This document shows positions 1-33,874 of a DNA stretch of 38,208 bases, one piece after another. Position 1 is the stretch's first letter; each line of letters opens with the position of its first letter. The stretch is from Candidatus Absconditabacterales bacterium. Its GTDB lineage: Bacteria > Patescibacteriota > Gracilibacteria > Absconditabacterales > Absconditicoccaceae. The stretch covers positions 1-38,208 of the forward strand of contig CALHCH010000081.1 of assembly GCA_937930555.1 (NCBI GenBank), given 5' to 3'. A program made the position numbers and the translations under genes. Under the pieces are notes generated by a model that was not told the origin of the DNA, did no database searches, and saw nothing but the letters and a program-made list of their open reading frames with translations.

Positions 1-460
1 ATACACTACATCAGCCGCTTTTTACGTCTACTACCGTGAGACTCACACCGTTGATCACGATACTTCATTTGGGTATGATCAATGGATCAAAACGCTCATC
101 AAAAGCTATACTCACCTTCAACGAACCATCCTCCTGAGTGAGGAGATCGGTGACCGTGCCAGTGGTGTCTATATGTCCGGTCACCACATGACCATCTAGT
201 CTCTCTCACATCTGCATACCCAGCTCCATATTGCAGTGATCTCAGATCTGCTTGGATCATAGTGTCGTGAGATCCAGACTCTCCTGCATAGCAAAAAAAC
301 CATATCTCTCATCCTCTATCATCTCTACCGTCATACATGCACCATCGTGCGAGACACTCTGTCAGATATGCAATACCACATCATCAGGCTTACTCAACAC
401 AAAATGTCCACCATCTCTATCCAATATCTCCACTTGGTGTGTCACAATACCCGTAAACAT
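1..460 (-). CDS. ribE: Riboflavin synthase alpha chain (partial, 3' end outside window)
   Basis: Riboflavin synthase dismutates two 6,7-dimethyl-8-ribityllumazine molecules into riboflavin. The translation begins with the canonical MFTGIV start and continues with GQSVSHDGACMTV, a LxxTTLG segment, DGHVVTGHIDTTG and INGVSLTV, the signatures of the first lumazine-binding barrel and the start of the second. UGA must be read as glycine (five codons, e.g. in IGQSV and MGERLDGH). About 153 residues are visible; the usual length is about 200, so the C-terminus lies beyond base 1. The start is fixed by the family's invariant N-terminus. No other rib gene is visible. CPR genomes mostly lack riboflavin synthesis, so the gene is notable; it may be a remnant pathway or a lone salvage step. 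Confidence 0.93.
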
Positions 461-11428: not shown

Positions 11429-12052
11429 TTACGCTCTAGCGTAGAATTCTACCACCTTCAAGATATCTACTGGAGTAGATATTTCGTCAGGATTTGGGAG
11501 ATCAAGAACTTCTACCTCATATTTTTTCTTGTTTACTTTGAGCCATCCTGGAGTATTGGTATCACCAACGCTGATAGGAGCTATACTATACAATGGAGAA
11601 GATTGTAGTTTTGTTCTGATGCTGATCACATCACCTGGATTGACATAGGTAGACGGGACATTATGTTTTTTGCCATTGAGCAAAAAGTGTCCATGTACCA
11701 CAATCTGTCTAGCCTGCATGATCGTATGAGCAAATCCAGCTCTGAGTACAATCACATCCAGTCTTCTTTCCAAGAATTGGAGTACTGCCTTATCGTGTGC
11801 CATACCCTTGTTTTTTGCATGACGAGAAGCAGTTTTTACCACGATTCTTTTAAACTGTTTTTCTGTAAGAAGATACATCCTTTTTAGAACCTGCTTGTTT
11901 CTCAGTAATTTTCCGTATTCAGAGAGTCTTACATTGGCAGCACCATGCTGTCCTGGTACAGACCTTCTTTTTCTTACGTCATATTTTGCAGGACCAAACA
12001 AGTTGATACCTTCTCTTCTACAGAGCTTAAACTTAGGTCAGTTGTATTTCAT
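11429..12052 (-). CDS. rpsD: 30S ribosomal protein S4
   Basis: uS4 is a primary 16S rRNA binder. The start at 12052 gives MKYNGPKFKLCRREGINLFG, the conserved N-terminal block, with one UGA glycine; starting at 12001 would delete it. The S4 RNA-binding domain is visible as RRLDVIVLRAGFAHTIMQAR. Length 207. The single UGA among about 14 glycines shows how strongly UGA use varies between genes here. Confidence 0.98.
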
Positions 12053-15208: not shown

Positions 15209-15943
15209 TTATTTTACTGATTTTTTGGGCACAAATTTTGGAGCTTTTCTTTTGGTGTCTGTCCCTGATCAAGCTGCATCTTTGGCTGATGCGGATGACT
15301 TCTTTGCTTGCTGCTCTTGTTCTTTCTTTTTGGCTGCTGCTCATTTTTCTCTATTGAGCTGTCTTCTTTCTTTCTTGGATTTTTGCTCACCTACAGCTTT
15401 TTGCTTGTATGCTGCGATCACCAATGTAAATCAATAATTTTCTTTTTTGACTCATTGGGTTTTTCCGTGATCTTTGAGTTGTTCTTCTACGCCGTCTAGT
15501 TTGACGCGCACGATATCTCTATACATTTTCTCTCTTCACTTTAGCACAACATTTATTTTTACTGGATGTCACTTATCCAAAAACTGTTTTGCTTTTTTTA
15601 CTTTCATCTCTAGATCGTGATCTCAGATATTGTACCCAAACTTGACCTCTTTTTGCACCTTTGCTTTCATCTTCTTTCTCTTTTCTGACTCTAGCTTTTT
15701 GCTTTCATACTGATGCTTACCAAAATCGATTACTTTAGCGGTACAGATCTTTGTTTTGGGATCATAACTTACTTGCACGAGATCCATTGATTTTTCTGCT
15801 GCAAGTTCTAGGGCTTTTTTTCTAGGCATAGTTCACAGTTTTTCTCAGTGTTCATCTACCACGAGGATAGTAAACGCCTTGATGTCTTCATTCTTGAATA
15901 TTCTCCGAGATTTCTGCTGACTTCACCTCTTGTTAAATGCCAT
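15209..15943 (-). CDS. infC: Translation initiation factor IF-3 with long basic C-terminal tail
   Basis: IF-3 keeps ribosomal subunits apart and proofreads initiator tRNA. N-domain: FKNEDIKAFTILVVDEHGEK and MPRKKALELAAEKSMDLVQV. C-domain: VKFGYNIGDHDLEMKVKKA, FLDKGHPVKINVVLKGREKM. The core of about 185 residues is followed by about 60 residues rich in Lys/Ala/Glu (EKGAAAKKKEQEQQAKK), giving 244. Internal start at 15829 would cut the N-domain; 15943 is preferred. First gene of the minus-strand translation cluster. Confidence 0.97.
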
Positions 15944-16043
15944 AGAATTTCAAATTTAAAAACGTGCTTCAATCCGAAGCTGACAATTTTTAGATATTTT
16001 TGGGAGAAATGCAAGTCGAAATAACATCAAATCGCATATAAAG

Positions 16044-19000
16044 CTATTTCTTCTTCACCTTCCCATTGTCCAATCTCACCACCTTGTCTGCAAACTGAAG
16101 AAGATTCTTTTCGTGTTCTATCATCAATACGGTAGATCCATAGTCTAAGAATTGTTTGAGTACGGATAATAACTTCTCTATATCACTTGGATGAAGTCAG
16201 ACCGTAGGCTCGTCGAGGAAGTATACTGTGTGTCCCCTATATTGTTTCAATAAATGTTTTACAAGCTTGAGTCTCTGAGACTCACCACCCGAAAGGGTAT
16301 GCGCTGGCTGTCACATCTTGAGATATCACAGTCATATATCCATCATCAACTGCAGCTTGTCGTGGATAAACGGAATCTCAGAGAAAAACTCATACGCATC
16401 CATCACATACATCTCCAGTATCTGTGTGATCGTCACATCGTGTCGACGTATGTCTAGTATCTCTGGCTTGTATCTCCTCCCTTTGCATAGGTCGCAGGGC
16501 ACATACGCATCTGGCAAGAACTGTAACTCTACCTTTTTGTACCCATATCACTTACACTCTGGGCAAGCTCATTTGGCAGAGTTGAACGAAAAGTGTCCAG
16601 CGTTGAATCACAACATCTTGGCTTCTGTGACTCCAGCAAACATCTTGCGGATATCATCAAACACACCTACAAAAGTAGCTGGACAAGAACGAGGGGTTTT
16701 TCCGATTGAGGATTGGTCTACATACAGGACATTGTCTATCTCCTCTCGACCCTTGATAGTCTCCACTCATATATGGTCATAAAATTGCTCGAGAGCAAGC
16801 TTTTCGAGATGTTCGTATTTTTTGCGTTGCATGACTGGTGCTTGTATGATATCTTGTCGAGAGAGTCATTCTTTGAGCAGCTGGAGTCTGATCTGGGACT
16901 GTACTCGCTTGCCTTTGTCTTGGAGGAAGTTGTACAATGTATGGTACATCAGCGTGGTCTTACCTGCACCACTAGGTCCAGTGATGATAGTAAAACTCCC
17001 CAACGCTATATCTACATCCACTCATTGGAGATTATGTTTATTTGCTTTTTTGATCTGGAGTATGGCAGAGCTTGGTTTATGATCAAACGATCATTGCACC
17101 TTTTTGCGACCAGTGATATACTGAGCTGTGAGGGTGTCGGTTTTTACAAAATCCTTGTATGGTCCATTGAATACAATATCTCATCCAAAATCACCTGCCC
17201 CAGGTCACACCTCCACGATCCAGTCACTTGCTTTGATAAACGCATCATTGTGCTCGACGACCACGATAGTATTGCCCATCTCCTGGAGTCATCTGATCGC
17301 TTTGATTACCTTCTCGATCTCCTCTTCATGCAGTCATATGGTAGGCTCATCTAGCACATAGATGATTCAGGTCAATTTGTTACCTAGTTGTTTGGCTAGT
17401 CTCAGTCTCTGGATCTCTCATCCACTCAGGGTATCGATCTTGCGAAATGTAGCTAGGTATCACAGACCCAGCTCATCTATCGTACTCGCTCTATCCATCA
17501 GCGGTCAGACGATCCTACGTGCAAGTTCAGCATTTTTGCTTGTTGTTTTGGCAAATTTTTGCATCACCTGGACCAGATCGGCTATAGGGAGTTGCTGGAG
17601 ATCATGGATATTGTATACTTGTTGTAGGTCTGCGATATTGGTGAGTCTGTCGGCGTCCTTGCTTTTTTTGTCCAAGACAATATGTACAGCCAGAGCTTCT
17701 TTGCAGAGTTTGGCACCATCACAAGTCGGACACGGCATCATATCCAGCATAGCTTGGAAATCTACAGTCAGGACTCATTTTTGGTACTGAGAGATGAGGA
17801 CATCCTCCACTCACTTGTAGGTGATCGTGATATATTTGCCTCATCATATACTGAGTCTATACTGCTCCTCATCACCATTGAGCACCACTTCTTTGAAATA
17901 ATCTGGGAGATCTCATCGGCGAGTCTGCACATCTATATCATATACATCTGCAAGTTTTTTTAGTATAGCTTGACCGAGATTGCTATCTCTCCATGGGAGC
18001 ATCGCCTTGAGATACTTGCTATATGGGTCCAATACCTTGTCAAAATCCACCTGTAATATCTCACCCAGACCATGACACTTGTCACACGCACCCTCCTGCC
18101 TATTGGATGAGAAGTGCGCTGGTGTGAGTTCTGGATATTTTATATCGTCCTTGGCACAGTAGTATTTGTCGGTATATCGAGTGGTCTCATCTGATACATC
18201 TCCACTGACTCATATAGCAGATCATCATAGATTATCTCAGAGAAACGATGATATAGCATCAAACAGCTCTCACTCCTGAGCTCATATATAGTGATTTTCT
18301 TCTGATGCAGGTGTGACCAATGTTGCATTATATGCCTTACTGAGTTTGTTGGCTTGTGTTTTAGAGATTTTTTTGTCTTTAGGGTCATGTATGATCAAGA
18401 TGTTTTCTGCGGTACTCTTGATCTTCATCCCATCAAACTCCCAGTCTGTCGTATCAAAATAGTCTCTCTCCAGACTTCACTTAAGTTTGGGCTCCATCAA
18501 TGATGCTACCAATATCATACCTGCTACTGGATGCTCTAGTCTTTCTACTACTTTTTGGGCTACTACTCATCACGCACTATGTCAGATGATGATAGTTTTT
18601 TCATCAAACGTTCCATTTTTCAACACAAAGCTTACCTGCTTATCTATGTTTGGCTTCTTTGGATTTGGCAATGCTGGAGCTTCTACTGCAAATCACAGCT
18701 CTTCAAGCTGTGTCTGCAACCAAGGCAGTGCATGCTGATTTGGTCATGATTGATACCCATGCAACAACACTACTCTATACCCCTCTCCCATTTTTCTTGT
18801 TTCTTGTTTCTTGTTTCTTGTTTCTTTCTTATCATCTTTCCTCGCGACTTCCCCACTATCCACATATCTTTTTACACCAAATTTTTCTGTCCTACTCAGC
18901 ATCTTGATCACATCGTCCTTGAGTCTCCTATGGATAGACTGACCCACCGTCACACGATCAAACACCCCACTCACTCTCACTGGAAACATCTCATCTGGCA

Positions 19001-19640
19001 CCTGAGGCGTTTCGAGATAGAAGTACTCTATAGACTCTCATTCTAGAGATGACGTATCATCTGCCGTCCCTGCATTCATCTCTACCATGATCCTGGTCAG
19101 CCCTCCGCCATTATCTACTTGTTTCCTATTTCTCGCCACAAATTGTTTCAACGACTTACTATCCTCAAACAATCCAAAATCCTGAAGTAGATAGATCTTC
19201 TGCCCATCAAATCTCATCAATATATCATCCACAATCTGATCAGTGGTCTTGGGTCTGAGAGGGTCGCCACATGTATGGCAGTATACCTCTCACAACTTAC
19301 TCATCATCAGCCTGAGATAATCATCCAGCTCAGTCAGCGTCCCCATCGTAGATCTACTATTGCCCACTCTCTTGTTTTGTTCTATACTCACCGCAGGCGA
19401 GAGTCCAGAGCTATAGTCCAGCTCAGGTCTAGATCCGAGATTGAACATCTGTCTGAGATACGAGCTCAACGACTCGATATAACGAAACTGCCCCTCCTTG
19501 TATATGGTATGAAACGCCAACGAAGACTTACCCGATCACGACACACCCGTCATCGTGATGATCTTATTTTTTGGCAATTCGATATCGATATTTTTGAGAT
19601 TGTTGGTCGAGACCCCCTGCAATACTATCTTATCCTCCAT
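16044..19640 (-). CDS. uvrA: UvrA excinuclease subunit containing an inserted RBBP9/YdeN-type alpha/beta-hydrolase domain, 1198 aa
   Basis: UvrA finds DNA lesions and loads UvrB in nucleotide excision repair. UvrA parts: Walker [20 protein letters not shown] near residue 33, [44 protein letters not shown], an intact zinc module CPEC...CDLC before KGRRYKPE, and a C-terminal ABC signature and Walker B region, ending [18 protein letters not shown]. The usual length is about 940. The extra part is a continuous domain at about residues 284-484: [29 protein letters not shown] (Ser355), HDPKDKKIS (Asp422) and EENHYIG (His450). It sits between the UvrB-binding region and the first zinc module, whose first pair is reduced to CAKD. 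One open frame throughout. Confidence 0.95.
18190..18791 (-). other. Inserted serine-hydrolase domain inside uvrA
   Basis: Codons for UvrA residues about 284-484. The domain starts at an internal ATG preceded by a purine-rich heptamer repeat. It has the order of the RBBP9/YdeN family: strand plus [30 protein letters not shown], nucleophile elbow [15 protein letters not shown], acidic residue in HDPKDK, and catalytic His in EENHYI. The members of this family are normally free-standing serine hydrolases of about 180-200 residues. The neighbouring UvrA sequence before ([16 protein letters not shown]) and after ([16 protein letters not shown]) is contiguous in normal UvrA. Confidence 0.88.
18793..18826. 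repeat. Heptanucleotide tandem repeat inside uvrA
   Basis: Plus strand (tttcttg) x4 plus a partial fifth unit; on the coding strand the unit is caagaaa. It encodes a [12 protein letters not shown] linker between UvrA and the inserted hydrolase, one codon upstream of the domain's internal ATG. Because 7 is not a multiple of 3, gain or loss of one unit would shift the frame. Confidence 0.9.
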
Positions 19641-19710
19641 AGATACTAGATCAAAAATACAAAAATGCCGCCATCACGGACAGACGTCACGCGGTCGACA
19701 GTGGAGCTTA

Positions 19711-19914
19711 CTGTAATATTAAAAACGGGTTGGAATAACAACTCTCAATTGCTATCTAAGCGATTTTTTCTTGAGACCTTCATTCTCTGTATCAAGCAGT
19801 TTTCAATAGATTACAGCGCTAATAAATCAGCTTAAGTTCAAGACACCTCTAAAACGCTAGTTGAATAGCTATCTTTCGAAGATAATTTTGTCTGACCGGT
19901 TTCTGATTTATTAG
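19711..19914 (-). ncRNA. Candidate structured RNA / cis-regulatory leader, copy 1 (upstream of uvrA)
   Basis: A 204-nt element paired with the 205-nt element at 32803-33007. Read on the minus strand: outer stem 1 CTAATAAATCAG/CTGATTTATTAG, inner AGACA/TGTCT, then the shared block ATTAGCGCTGTAAT, and stem 2 CTGTAAT/ATTACAG extended by ATTGAAAAC/GTTTTTAAT. That extension needs a G-U pair only possible on the minus strand, so the minus strand is the likely RNA. It ends 70 nt before the uvrA start codon. No coding frame. Could be a leader element or a separate small RNA. Confidence 0.65.
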
Positions 19915-20062
19915 TATCTCGTACCATATATGGTATATGGTCGCAGATATTCCTAACATTTCATTATTACGGAGTTGTGGCGTTTTTACAAATAGAAAAG
20001 CAGCCTTGATAATATCAAAGCTGCTAGAGAGGTATTTTTTTATAGTTTATATTAGTAATATT

Positions 20063-32119: not shown

Positions 32120-32746
32120 CTATCTTGTATAAATTCAAATATTATCTAACAACTCTGGAAGTGCCGGCTGCATGAAGTGTCATCTTGTTTCAAATACTTC
32201 GAATATAGCATTTGGCAATAATTCATTTAATCTTTTTGAATGATTGAATGGTACAACTGTATCATCTTTTGAATGGTAGATATATAGATCTTTTGTCGTA
32301 TCACTAATATTCGAAACTCTTGTAAGATCTATAATAAAATCATTAAGTCACAGTAGTTTGCCTGGTCGCTCTCAGTCCTTTATTCATTCTATATCAAGCA
32401 ATGGACACACTAAATGAATTTGATTAATCTTCACAGGAAAAGAGTTTTCACTCAAATACTTGATAATAAATGTGGCTCAAAGTGAATGTCACACAAGAAT
32501 AATCTCGTCTTGTAGGTGTTGAAAATATTTTTCAAACCATATCTTTCGAGCTTTATATTCGGCATTTCGCTTACAAGGCATAGATGGCCTAATGCAATGT
32601 AGTTGTTCTGATACAGCATCACACAACCATCATTTCCAACTTTTTTTTTCTTCAAATAAATCTCGAGGACACTCTTCAAGAAAAGTATGATAATCACTTT
32701 GATTATCGAACAACTCTCAACCATTAATTAAAATCATCTGCTTCAT
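32120..32746 (-). CDS. RBBP9/YdeN-type serine hydrolase, 208 aa
   Basis: Alpha/beta-hydrolase of the small RBBP9/YdeN group. Nucleophile elbow IILVGHSLGATF (Ser88), acid in YHSKDDTVVPF (Asp161 or 162) and His190 in ETRGHFMQPALPEL. Upstream of the elbow, NAEYKA-CGA-KIWFEK fits the group's YxxWKxWFEK pattern if CGA is Trp. UGA glycines include the one in the nucleophile elbow (VGHS). The same fold is inserted in UvrA at 18190-18791. It is one base from argS and 56 bases downstream of a structured RNA element also found before uvrA. Substrate unknown. Confidence 0.92.
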
Positions 32747-32802: not shown

Positions 32803-33007
32803 CTGTAATATCGAAAACGGATCGGAATAGCAGTTGGTAAGCAGTGTTTGATCTCTCTCTAGTATAGACCTTGATTAGCTAGATAGAGCTGTTTTCGATT
32901 CATTACAGCGCTAATGTATTGTTTGTATATTGAGACAATCTCCGAAAGTAAGCACATAAGCTAGATTTCAATCGATTCTTTGTCTAACTGGTAATCAATA
33001 CATTAGC
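32803..33007 (-). ncRNA. Candidate structured RNA / cis-regulatory leader, copy 2 (upstream of serine hydrolase-argS)
   Basis: 205-nt partner of 19711-19914. Minus strand: stem 1 GCTAATGTATTG/CAATACATTAGC, inner AGACA/TGTCT, shared ATTAGCGCTGTAAT, stem 2 CTGTAAT/ATTACAG extended by ATCGAAAAC/GTTTTCGAT. Stem sequences differ from copy 1 but pairing is kept. Shared unpaired blocks: ACCxGTxAGACAAA, AAGGTCT and TATTCCxAxCCGTTTT. On the minus strand a T6 run follows stem 2 after about 4 bases, so a stand-alone RNA that terminates there is also possible. It ends 56 nt before the hydrolase start. Confidence 0.65.
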
Positions 33008-33097: not shown

Positions 33098-33874
33098 ATG
33101 AAAAAGATTTTGCAGAGTATGATGTGACTGTCAGCACTAGTATTGCTAGCTGGATGCAGCTCTACCACCACACAGACACCACCTACCGAAGGTTGAGCAG
33201 TAGCTGTACCGCAAGTAGAGGCTCCTACAGCACAGCCAAAAGAGGAAATCAAAGAAGAAGCGAAGGAGGAGGTGAAGGAAGAGGTAAAAGAAGAGATAGC
33301 AGCACCTACAGGCACCACTACTGTCGTGATAGAAACAGATATGTGAACAATGGAAGCAGTACTATATGACAGCACTCCAGCACATAGAGACAATTTCGTC
33401 AAGCTAGCCAACGAGTGATACTACGATGATTTGTTGTTTCATAGAGTGATCAAGTGATTTATGATCCAGGGGGGAGATCCTGACTCTCGTGGTGCAGCAG
33501 AGTGAGTGACTCTGGGTAGATGATGACCAGATTACAAGATCGATGCTGAAATCGGAGCACCGCATTTCAAAGGCACGCTCGCAGCAGCTAGGCAATGATG
33601 AGGCATCAATCCTGAAAAAAAATCTAGCGGATCGCAGTTTTATATAGTACAATGACAACCGGTGACAGAAGCACAACTGAGACTGGAATACACTCCAGAA
33701 CAAATCCAAAAATATCTAGAAATCGGAGGGACTCCTATGTTGGATGGAGAGTATACGGTATTTGGTGAGGTGACTGTCTGACTAGATGTGATAGACAAGA
33801 TCGCTGATACCCCTACAGCCAGAGGTGACAGACCAATACAGGATATAAAAATGAAAATACGTGTAAAAGAGTAG
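33098..33874 (+). CDS. Cyclophilin-type peptidyl-prolyl isomerase lipoprotein, 258 aa
   Basis: Envelope-anchored proline isomerase. Signal peptide with lipobox LLAGC, a Lys/Glu-rich linker (KEEIKEEAKEEVKEEVKEE), then the cyclophilin domain: NFVKLANEGYYDDLLFHRVI, KGFMIQGGDPDSRG, ARQGGGINPEKKSSGSQFYI and GEYTVFGEVTVG. Glycines in the invariant KGFMIQGG and FGEV surroundings include UGA; without the code change the gene falls into pieces. Length is typical for a lipoprotein cyclophilin. Followed by a perfect 12-bp-stem terminator. Confidence 0.96.

Follow-up and report, generated by a model that had tools for sequence, protein, structure and literature searches.

The window, by which we mean the whole analysed stretch of 38,208 nt, holds a uvrA gene with an inserted Ser_hydrolase domain as well as a stand-alone Ser_hydrolase gene with a divergent neighbour. 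Upstream of each of these two hydrolase-encoding genes lies one copy of a structured element of about 204 nt, which we refer to as the twin-hairpin element. The features considered in the present study are as follows.

16044..19640, minus strand: uvrA with inserted Ser_hydrolase (PF06821) domain, start codon 70 nt downstream of copy 1
19711..19914, minus strand: copy 1 (c81a), element core of about 204 nt, with TA on both sides (GATA precedes the first bases CTAAT, TA follows the last bases CAG)
19819..19914, minus strand: copy 1 hairpin 1, 11-bp stem CTAATAAATCA/TGATTTATTAG around an AGACA/TGTCT stem
19711..19816, minus strand: copy 1 hairpin 2, CTGTAAT..ATTGAAAAC / GTTTTTAATATTACAG, 16 bp
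19963..19991, minus strand: promoter-like TTGTAA-17-AATAAT upstream of copy 1
32120..32746, minus strand: stand-alone Ser_hydrolase gene (RBBP9/YdeN-type, PF06821), 56 nt downstream of copy 2
32803..33006, minus strand: copy 2 (c81b), element core
32911..33006, minus strand: copy 2 hairpin 1, CTAATGTATTG/CAATACATTAG
32803..32908, minus strand: copy 2 hairpin 2, CTGTAATGAATCGAAAAC/GTTTTCGATATTACAG
33098..33874, plus strand: cyclophilin-type lipoprotein gene, divergent neighbour of copy 2

Read on the minus strand, the element consists of two adjacent hairpins 2 nt apart, in the plan CTAAT...ATTAG-CG-CTGTAAT...ATTACAG. The original prediction had described two homologous elements of about 205 nt at these positions, 70 and 56 nt before the start codons of genes with an RBBP9/YdeN hydrolase domain; the elements were confirmed with the cores given above, and the distances were correct, as was the shared domain, which is Ser_hydrolase PF06821 in both genes. 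The idea that the two hairpins arose as tandem duplicates was unsupported (shuffle p 0.38-0.98), and a search for a conserved small ORF within the element found no reading frame open across all copies.

The UvrA proteins of this genus (window 16044-19640, minus strand; L036, L037, L038, L055) are interrupted around residues 290-480 by an additional enzyme domain. This insert is a Ser_hydrolase (PF06821) here and in G002-G004, in genus-mate G001 its position is taken by a NUDIX domain (PF00293), and the UvrA of G010 and G007, from other genera, has neither. Such swappable enzyme inserts in a DNA-repair ATPase merit a separate study. The 70-nt stretch that separates copy 1 from uvrA (19641-19710, minus strand) includes an unusually GC-rich run, GTCGACCGCGTGACGTCTGTCCGTGATGGCGGC, that was not seen upstream of uvrA in genus-mates.

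Copies in the source genome and searches of other genomes

The source genome is a draft MAG of 1.2 Mb in 89 contigs and translates TGA as glycine (code 25), as do SR1/Absconditabacteria and Gracilibacteria. BLAST, a 20-base end pattern and covariance model R1 returned the identical set of five copies, namely the two in the window and three further ones, named here after their contigs.

C75 copy, 15844-16047, plus strand: full copy
C31 copy, 11743-11945, minus strand: full copy
C44 copy, 1-148, plus strand: incomplete at the contig start

With copy 1 as blastn query against its own genome the E-values were 9e-13 for C44, 2e-8 for C75 and 1.9e-5 for both copy 2 and C31, and copy 2 matched C75 at 85% identity (E=2e-62) and C31 at 84% (E=1e-59). 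The copies form two subfamilies, one of copy 2, C75 and C31 (84-90% identity) and one of copy 1 and C44. The two window copies stand as predicted, but the family is not limited to them.

All five copies are intergenic, as far as the contigs extend. The C31 copy follows an NYN-domain-like gene and precedes by 34 nt a DNA-methyltransferase/R-M-like gene (its similarity to NF047738 is weak and below cut-off), and the C44 copy is located 36 nt upstream of a DsbA-like gene, the NYN and DsbA names being given from sequence alone. The C75 copy takes up all of the space between two long convergent ORFs, its ends being 6 and 3 nt away from their stop codons. Orientation is informative for three copies only, all of them sense to the downstream gene (chance 1/8).

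The proposed link to hydrolase genes was removed by this genome-wide census. It fails because no hydrolase gene is found near three of the five copies, one of which has convergent genes on either side, and because the orthologues that carry a hydrolase in other members of the genus do not have the element. Homologues do occur at positions unlinked to these genes, which the original prediction had named as a refuting outcome, and a hydrolase-linked regulon was rejected from the contexts of the C75, C31 and C44 copies. From the original interpretation we retain a lineage-specific structured repeat family and drop the link to hydrolase genes; a riboswitch-like RNA is disfavoured by the loop divergence and the absence in relatives. 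It should be noted that two similar leaders beside similar genes in one window are insufficient to infer a riboswitch.

In four members of the genus we also observed a conserved region of about 100 nt directly 3' of the NYN-like gene, AAAGGGACGGCCTAAAGCAC...TTCGGAATCC...GCAAG (L019 7960-8060, minus strand; L062, L063, L064). It has no credible Rfam match and is possibly an unannotated structured RNA.

The element was not found in the four other genomes of the genus, in 48 further genomes that make up the remainder of the order or in about 287 other genomes of the class, and the covariance-model search of relatives gave no true homologue outside the source genome. The single covariance-model match in a distant genome, G255 (32.5 bits), lies inside an NAD-dependent DNA ligase-like gene and was attributed to chance, and matches in G010 and G065 were at noise level. 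Pattern scans of GTDB and viral contigs, which detect exact motifs and would miss diverged relatives, gave nothing real; none of four GTDB pattern matches scores as the element, and the one from Patescibacteria appears coding-like by eye. BLAST against phages and plasmids likewise gave nothing real. The Rfam comparison assigned the element to no family, as no match exceeded the gathering score and E<=10 gave a single chance snoRNA match only; a known RNA family was hence rejected.

Stem pairing, loop divergence and probable insertion sites

When all genome copies were compared, the 32 stem pairs were formed in 98.6% of cells, against only 33-42% in slid registers. Both-sided changes were present at 6 stem pairs, which 0 of 500 shuffles equalled. 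The predicted replacement of AAATCAG/CTGATTT by GTATTG/CAATAC was borne out with four compensatory pairs (4 of the 6 double changes), as was the alternation of G-U and G-C in stem 2. It had also been argued that the G-U pairs point to the minus strand as the sense strand; G-U is indeed found on this strand in five cells, but the asymmetry is not significant, since two C-A cells stand against these five. The minus-strand fold beats its shuffles with z of -2.8 (copy 1) and -3.9 (copy 2), and the plus-strand fold is weaker (z -2.1 and -3.0).

Compared with the other full copies, copy 1 differs at 49-51% of unpaired and 17-19% of paired positions; among the close copies the divergence is 12-22% in loops and 2-5% in stems. 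Unpaired conservation across the subfamilies is confined to short blocks (AGACAAA, AAGG, TTATTCC). As loops diverge by about 50% and stems by 17-19%, stem sequence and pairing are constrained, in contrast to the greater part of the loops. Such a pattern fits better with protein recognition of the hairpins, by a recombinase or transposase or in an RNase III-like or structural RNA role, than with a ligand-binding aptamer. On the other hand, loop length is near constant although loop sequence diverges, which hints at a constraint on the whole fold that a purely passive repeat does not fully explain.

No element was found in genus-mates upstream of the orthologues or relatives of uvrA, DsbA, the hydrolase and the cyclophilin; presence and absence thus vary at orthologous sites, to which the 5' breakpoint of the C31 copy adds a further case. 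The uvrA genes of G002-G004 have 69-78% identity over the aligned length, and the block TTGTAAA...CCGTAATAATG upstream of uvrA recurs in G003 and, less clearly, in G002. From the TTGTAAA block to the uvrA start there are about 40 nt in G003 and G002 and about 320 nt here, with copy 1 between. Because the promoter-like context is conserved upstream of uvrA in these two genus-mates, we infer that copy 1 is located in the uvrA 5' UTR. It is most likely transcribed within the uvrA leader, and a putative RNA-level effect on uvrA is hence plausible. Downstream of copy 1 there is a weak hairpin resembling a terminator (19683-19668), and no equivalent was found 3' of copy 2. A repeat that inserts between uvrA and its promoter would suggest that such elements are still taken up by ultra-small, streamlined genomes, which may gain new 5' UTRs from them.

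At the C31 copy, homology to G002 and G003 after the NYN-like gene ends at GATA, directly before CTAAT and thus at the element's first base. Only this 5' junction is informative, because the following gene differs from that of the relatives, and no clean two-sided empty site was obtained. The neighbours of the C75 copy were not found in genus-mates with a query of about 590 genuine residues preceded by about 60 stray letters. TA is found 3' of the core in 5/5 copies and 5' of it in 3/4 (copy 2 has TG). A 2-bp duplication is weak evidence, and the outer ends are not clear inverted repeats of each other; the inverted repeats of the element form its two separate hairpins.

These data bear on several explanations. 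The element could act in cis as a leader RNA, be it a riboswitch, an attenuator or a protein-bound leader, for a small regulon of uvrA-hydrolase, hydrolase, DNA methyltransferase and DsbA, to which we give a low chance. Four of the five copies lie sense and 34-70 nt upstream of a start codon, copy 1 separates the conserved uvrA promoter from the ORF and is followed by the terminator-like hairpin, and the stems are kept by compensatory changes. However, the C75 copy leads no gene, so that a sense position upstream of a gene is not general; the orientation speaks in three copies only; a terminator or expression platform shared by the copies was not seen after the element; and the same genes occur in genus-mates without it, leaving no same-gene association across relatives. 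A riboswitch in particular is disfavoured, because the loops diverge about three times as much as the stems, so that the unpaired core is the less constrained part, and because a shared expression platform and the element in relatives are both lacking, although copy 1, with its position between the conserved promoter and uvrA, may still act in this way.

A family of small RNAs that act in trans and are each transcribed from a promoter of their own would agree with the discrete length, the stable fold, the multiple copies and a C75 copy that leads no gene. Yet the window copies share neither a promoter-like site immediately upstream nor an intrinsic terminator at the 3' end, no single-stranded seed is conserved across subfamilies beyond the short blocks, and the element is lineage-restricted without synteny, hence we regard this explanation as improbable.

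Three REP-associated tyrosine transposase (RAYT)-like genes were observed in the genome (G000; NF047646, below cut-off) at C89:21461 (L099), C25:8255 (L100) and C22:23080 (L101). A different palindrome set precedes each of them, which suggests RAYT/REPIN systems in Absconditabacteria. With these genes present, and with two adjacent intergenic hairpins resembling a REPIN plan, the element might be an outsized REPIN-like palindrome pair serving as RAYT substrate. The palindromes before each RAYT gene are, however, its own and mostly GC-rich, and not the element, which has AT-rich stems and at least five times the length of a REP; we therefore find this very doubtful.

Finally, the draft state of the MAG and one copy cut by a contig end might raise the thought of an assembly or binning artefact or of chance similarity, but with inter-copy E-values down to 1e-60, compensatory changes, and flanks that are single-copy, differ between the copies and contain genes with orthologues in the genus, this can practically be dismissed, and the copy statistics already refute it.

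A probable mobile-type intergenic repeat and its known counterparts

We think it rather likely that the twin-hairpin element is a non-autonomous intergenic repeat of mobile type, specific to its lineage and comparable to bcr1, BOX and ERIC, about 204 bp long and built of two back-to-back imperfect hairpins. The grounds are the five copies dispersed between genes of one genome, the two subfamilies, the compensated stems, the unrelated neighbours and the absence from tested relatives, and the constraint on the stems favours this reading as it fits protein recognition better than an aptamer. The element would have spread to at least five intergenic sites in one Absconditabacteria (SR1)-like genome, presumably moved in trans by a recombinase or transposase recognising the hairpin stems, and would survive mainly in gaps between genes. 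Copy 1 may have landed downstream of a promoter and so be passively transcribed in a 5' UTR, where it may influence mRNA stability or translation.

Against the mobile-type repeat speak the low copy number, the uniform sense orientation of the three informative copies, the near-constant loop length, the poor inverted repeats at the outer ends, the short TA duplication and the one-sided junction at C31. Further, neither an enzyme that could mobilise the element nor an autonomous, full-length relative was found, and the 3' end motif, used as a query, returned only the five copies. Because no related autonomous transposon was found, we limit the claim to an element that works like a mobile intergenic repeat, and do not call it a MITE of a named IS. 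We also speculate, as an unlikely extension, that these repeats represent a new class of mobile element with a twin-hairpin plan, restricted to a single Absconditabacteria lineage; an enzyme recognising tandem hairpins instead of terminal inverted repeats would mobilise it, and it would have been domesticated to regulate DNA-repair and DNA-modification genes from their 5' UTRs. Small intergenic repeats of such kind did not turn up for the phylum in the literature searched.

With Rfam cis-regulatory RNAs and riboswitches the element shares the 5' UTR position in most copies and the compensatory stems, but it differs in having no Rfam match, loops less conserved than stems, and a copy, C75, flanked by convergent genes. 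REPs have a length of 20-40 bp (PMC3733652). The element resembles REPIN/RAYT systems in its paired palindromes in intergenic space and in the RAYT genes of the genome, but it is about 204 bp and AT-rich and has no RAYT neighbour, whereas the REPs beside RAYTs here are mostly GC-rich.

BOX of Streptococcus pneumoniae and ERIC are intergenic repeats without their own transposase and with possible secondary effects on mRNA (PMC10969869). Unlike these, the twin-hairpin element has neither boxA/B/C modules nor a single long palindrome; the sequence comparison here consists of the plasmid, phage and GTDB searches.

For repeats of the bcr1, BOX and ERIC sort, transcription as an incidental part of UTRs is documented (PMC3446304; PMC10969869), and structured repeat families have precedent (PMC2267715). 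In the Bacillus cereus group, bcr1 and its relatives are intergenic, lineage-specific, about 150-170 bp long and conserved in secondary structure (PMC3446304; PMC2267715). They are MITE-like and often transcribed in 5' or 3' UTRs (PMC3446304), and bcr10 and bcr18 have been proposed as RNA regulators (PMC3446304; PMC2267715). Whereas the twin-hairpin element differs from bcr1 in its two tandem hairpins, its five copies, its code-25 Absconditabacteria-like host and a sequence that is unrelated as far as searched, it is, like bcr1, intergenic, lineage-specific and structured.
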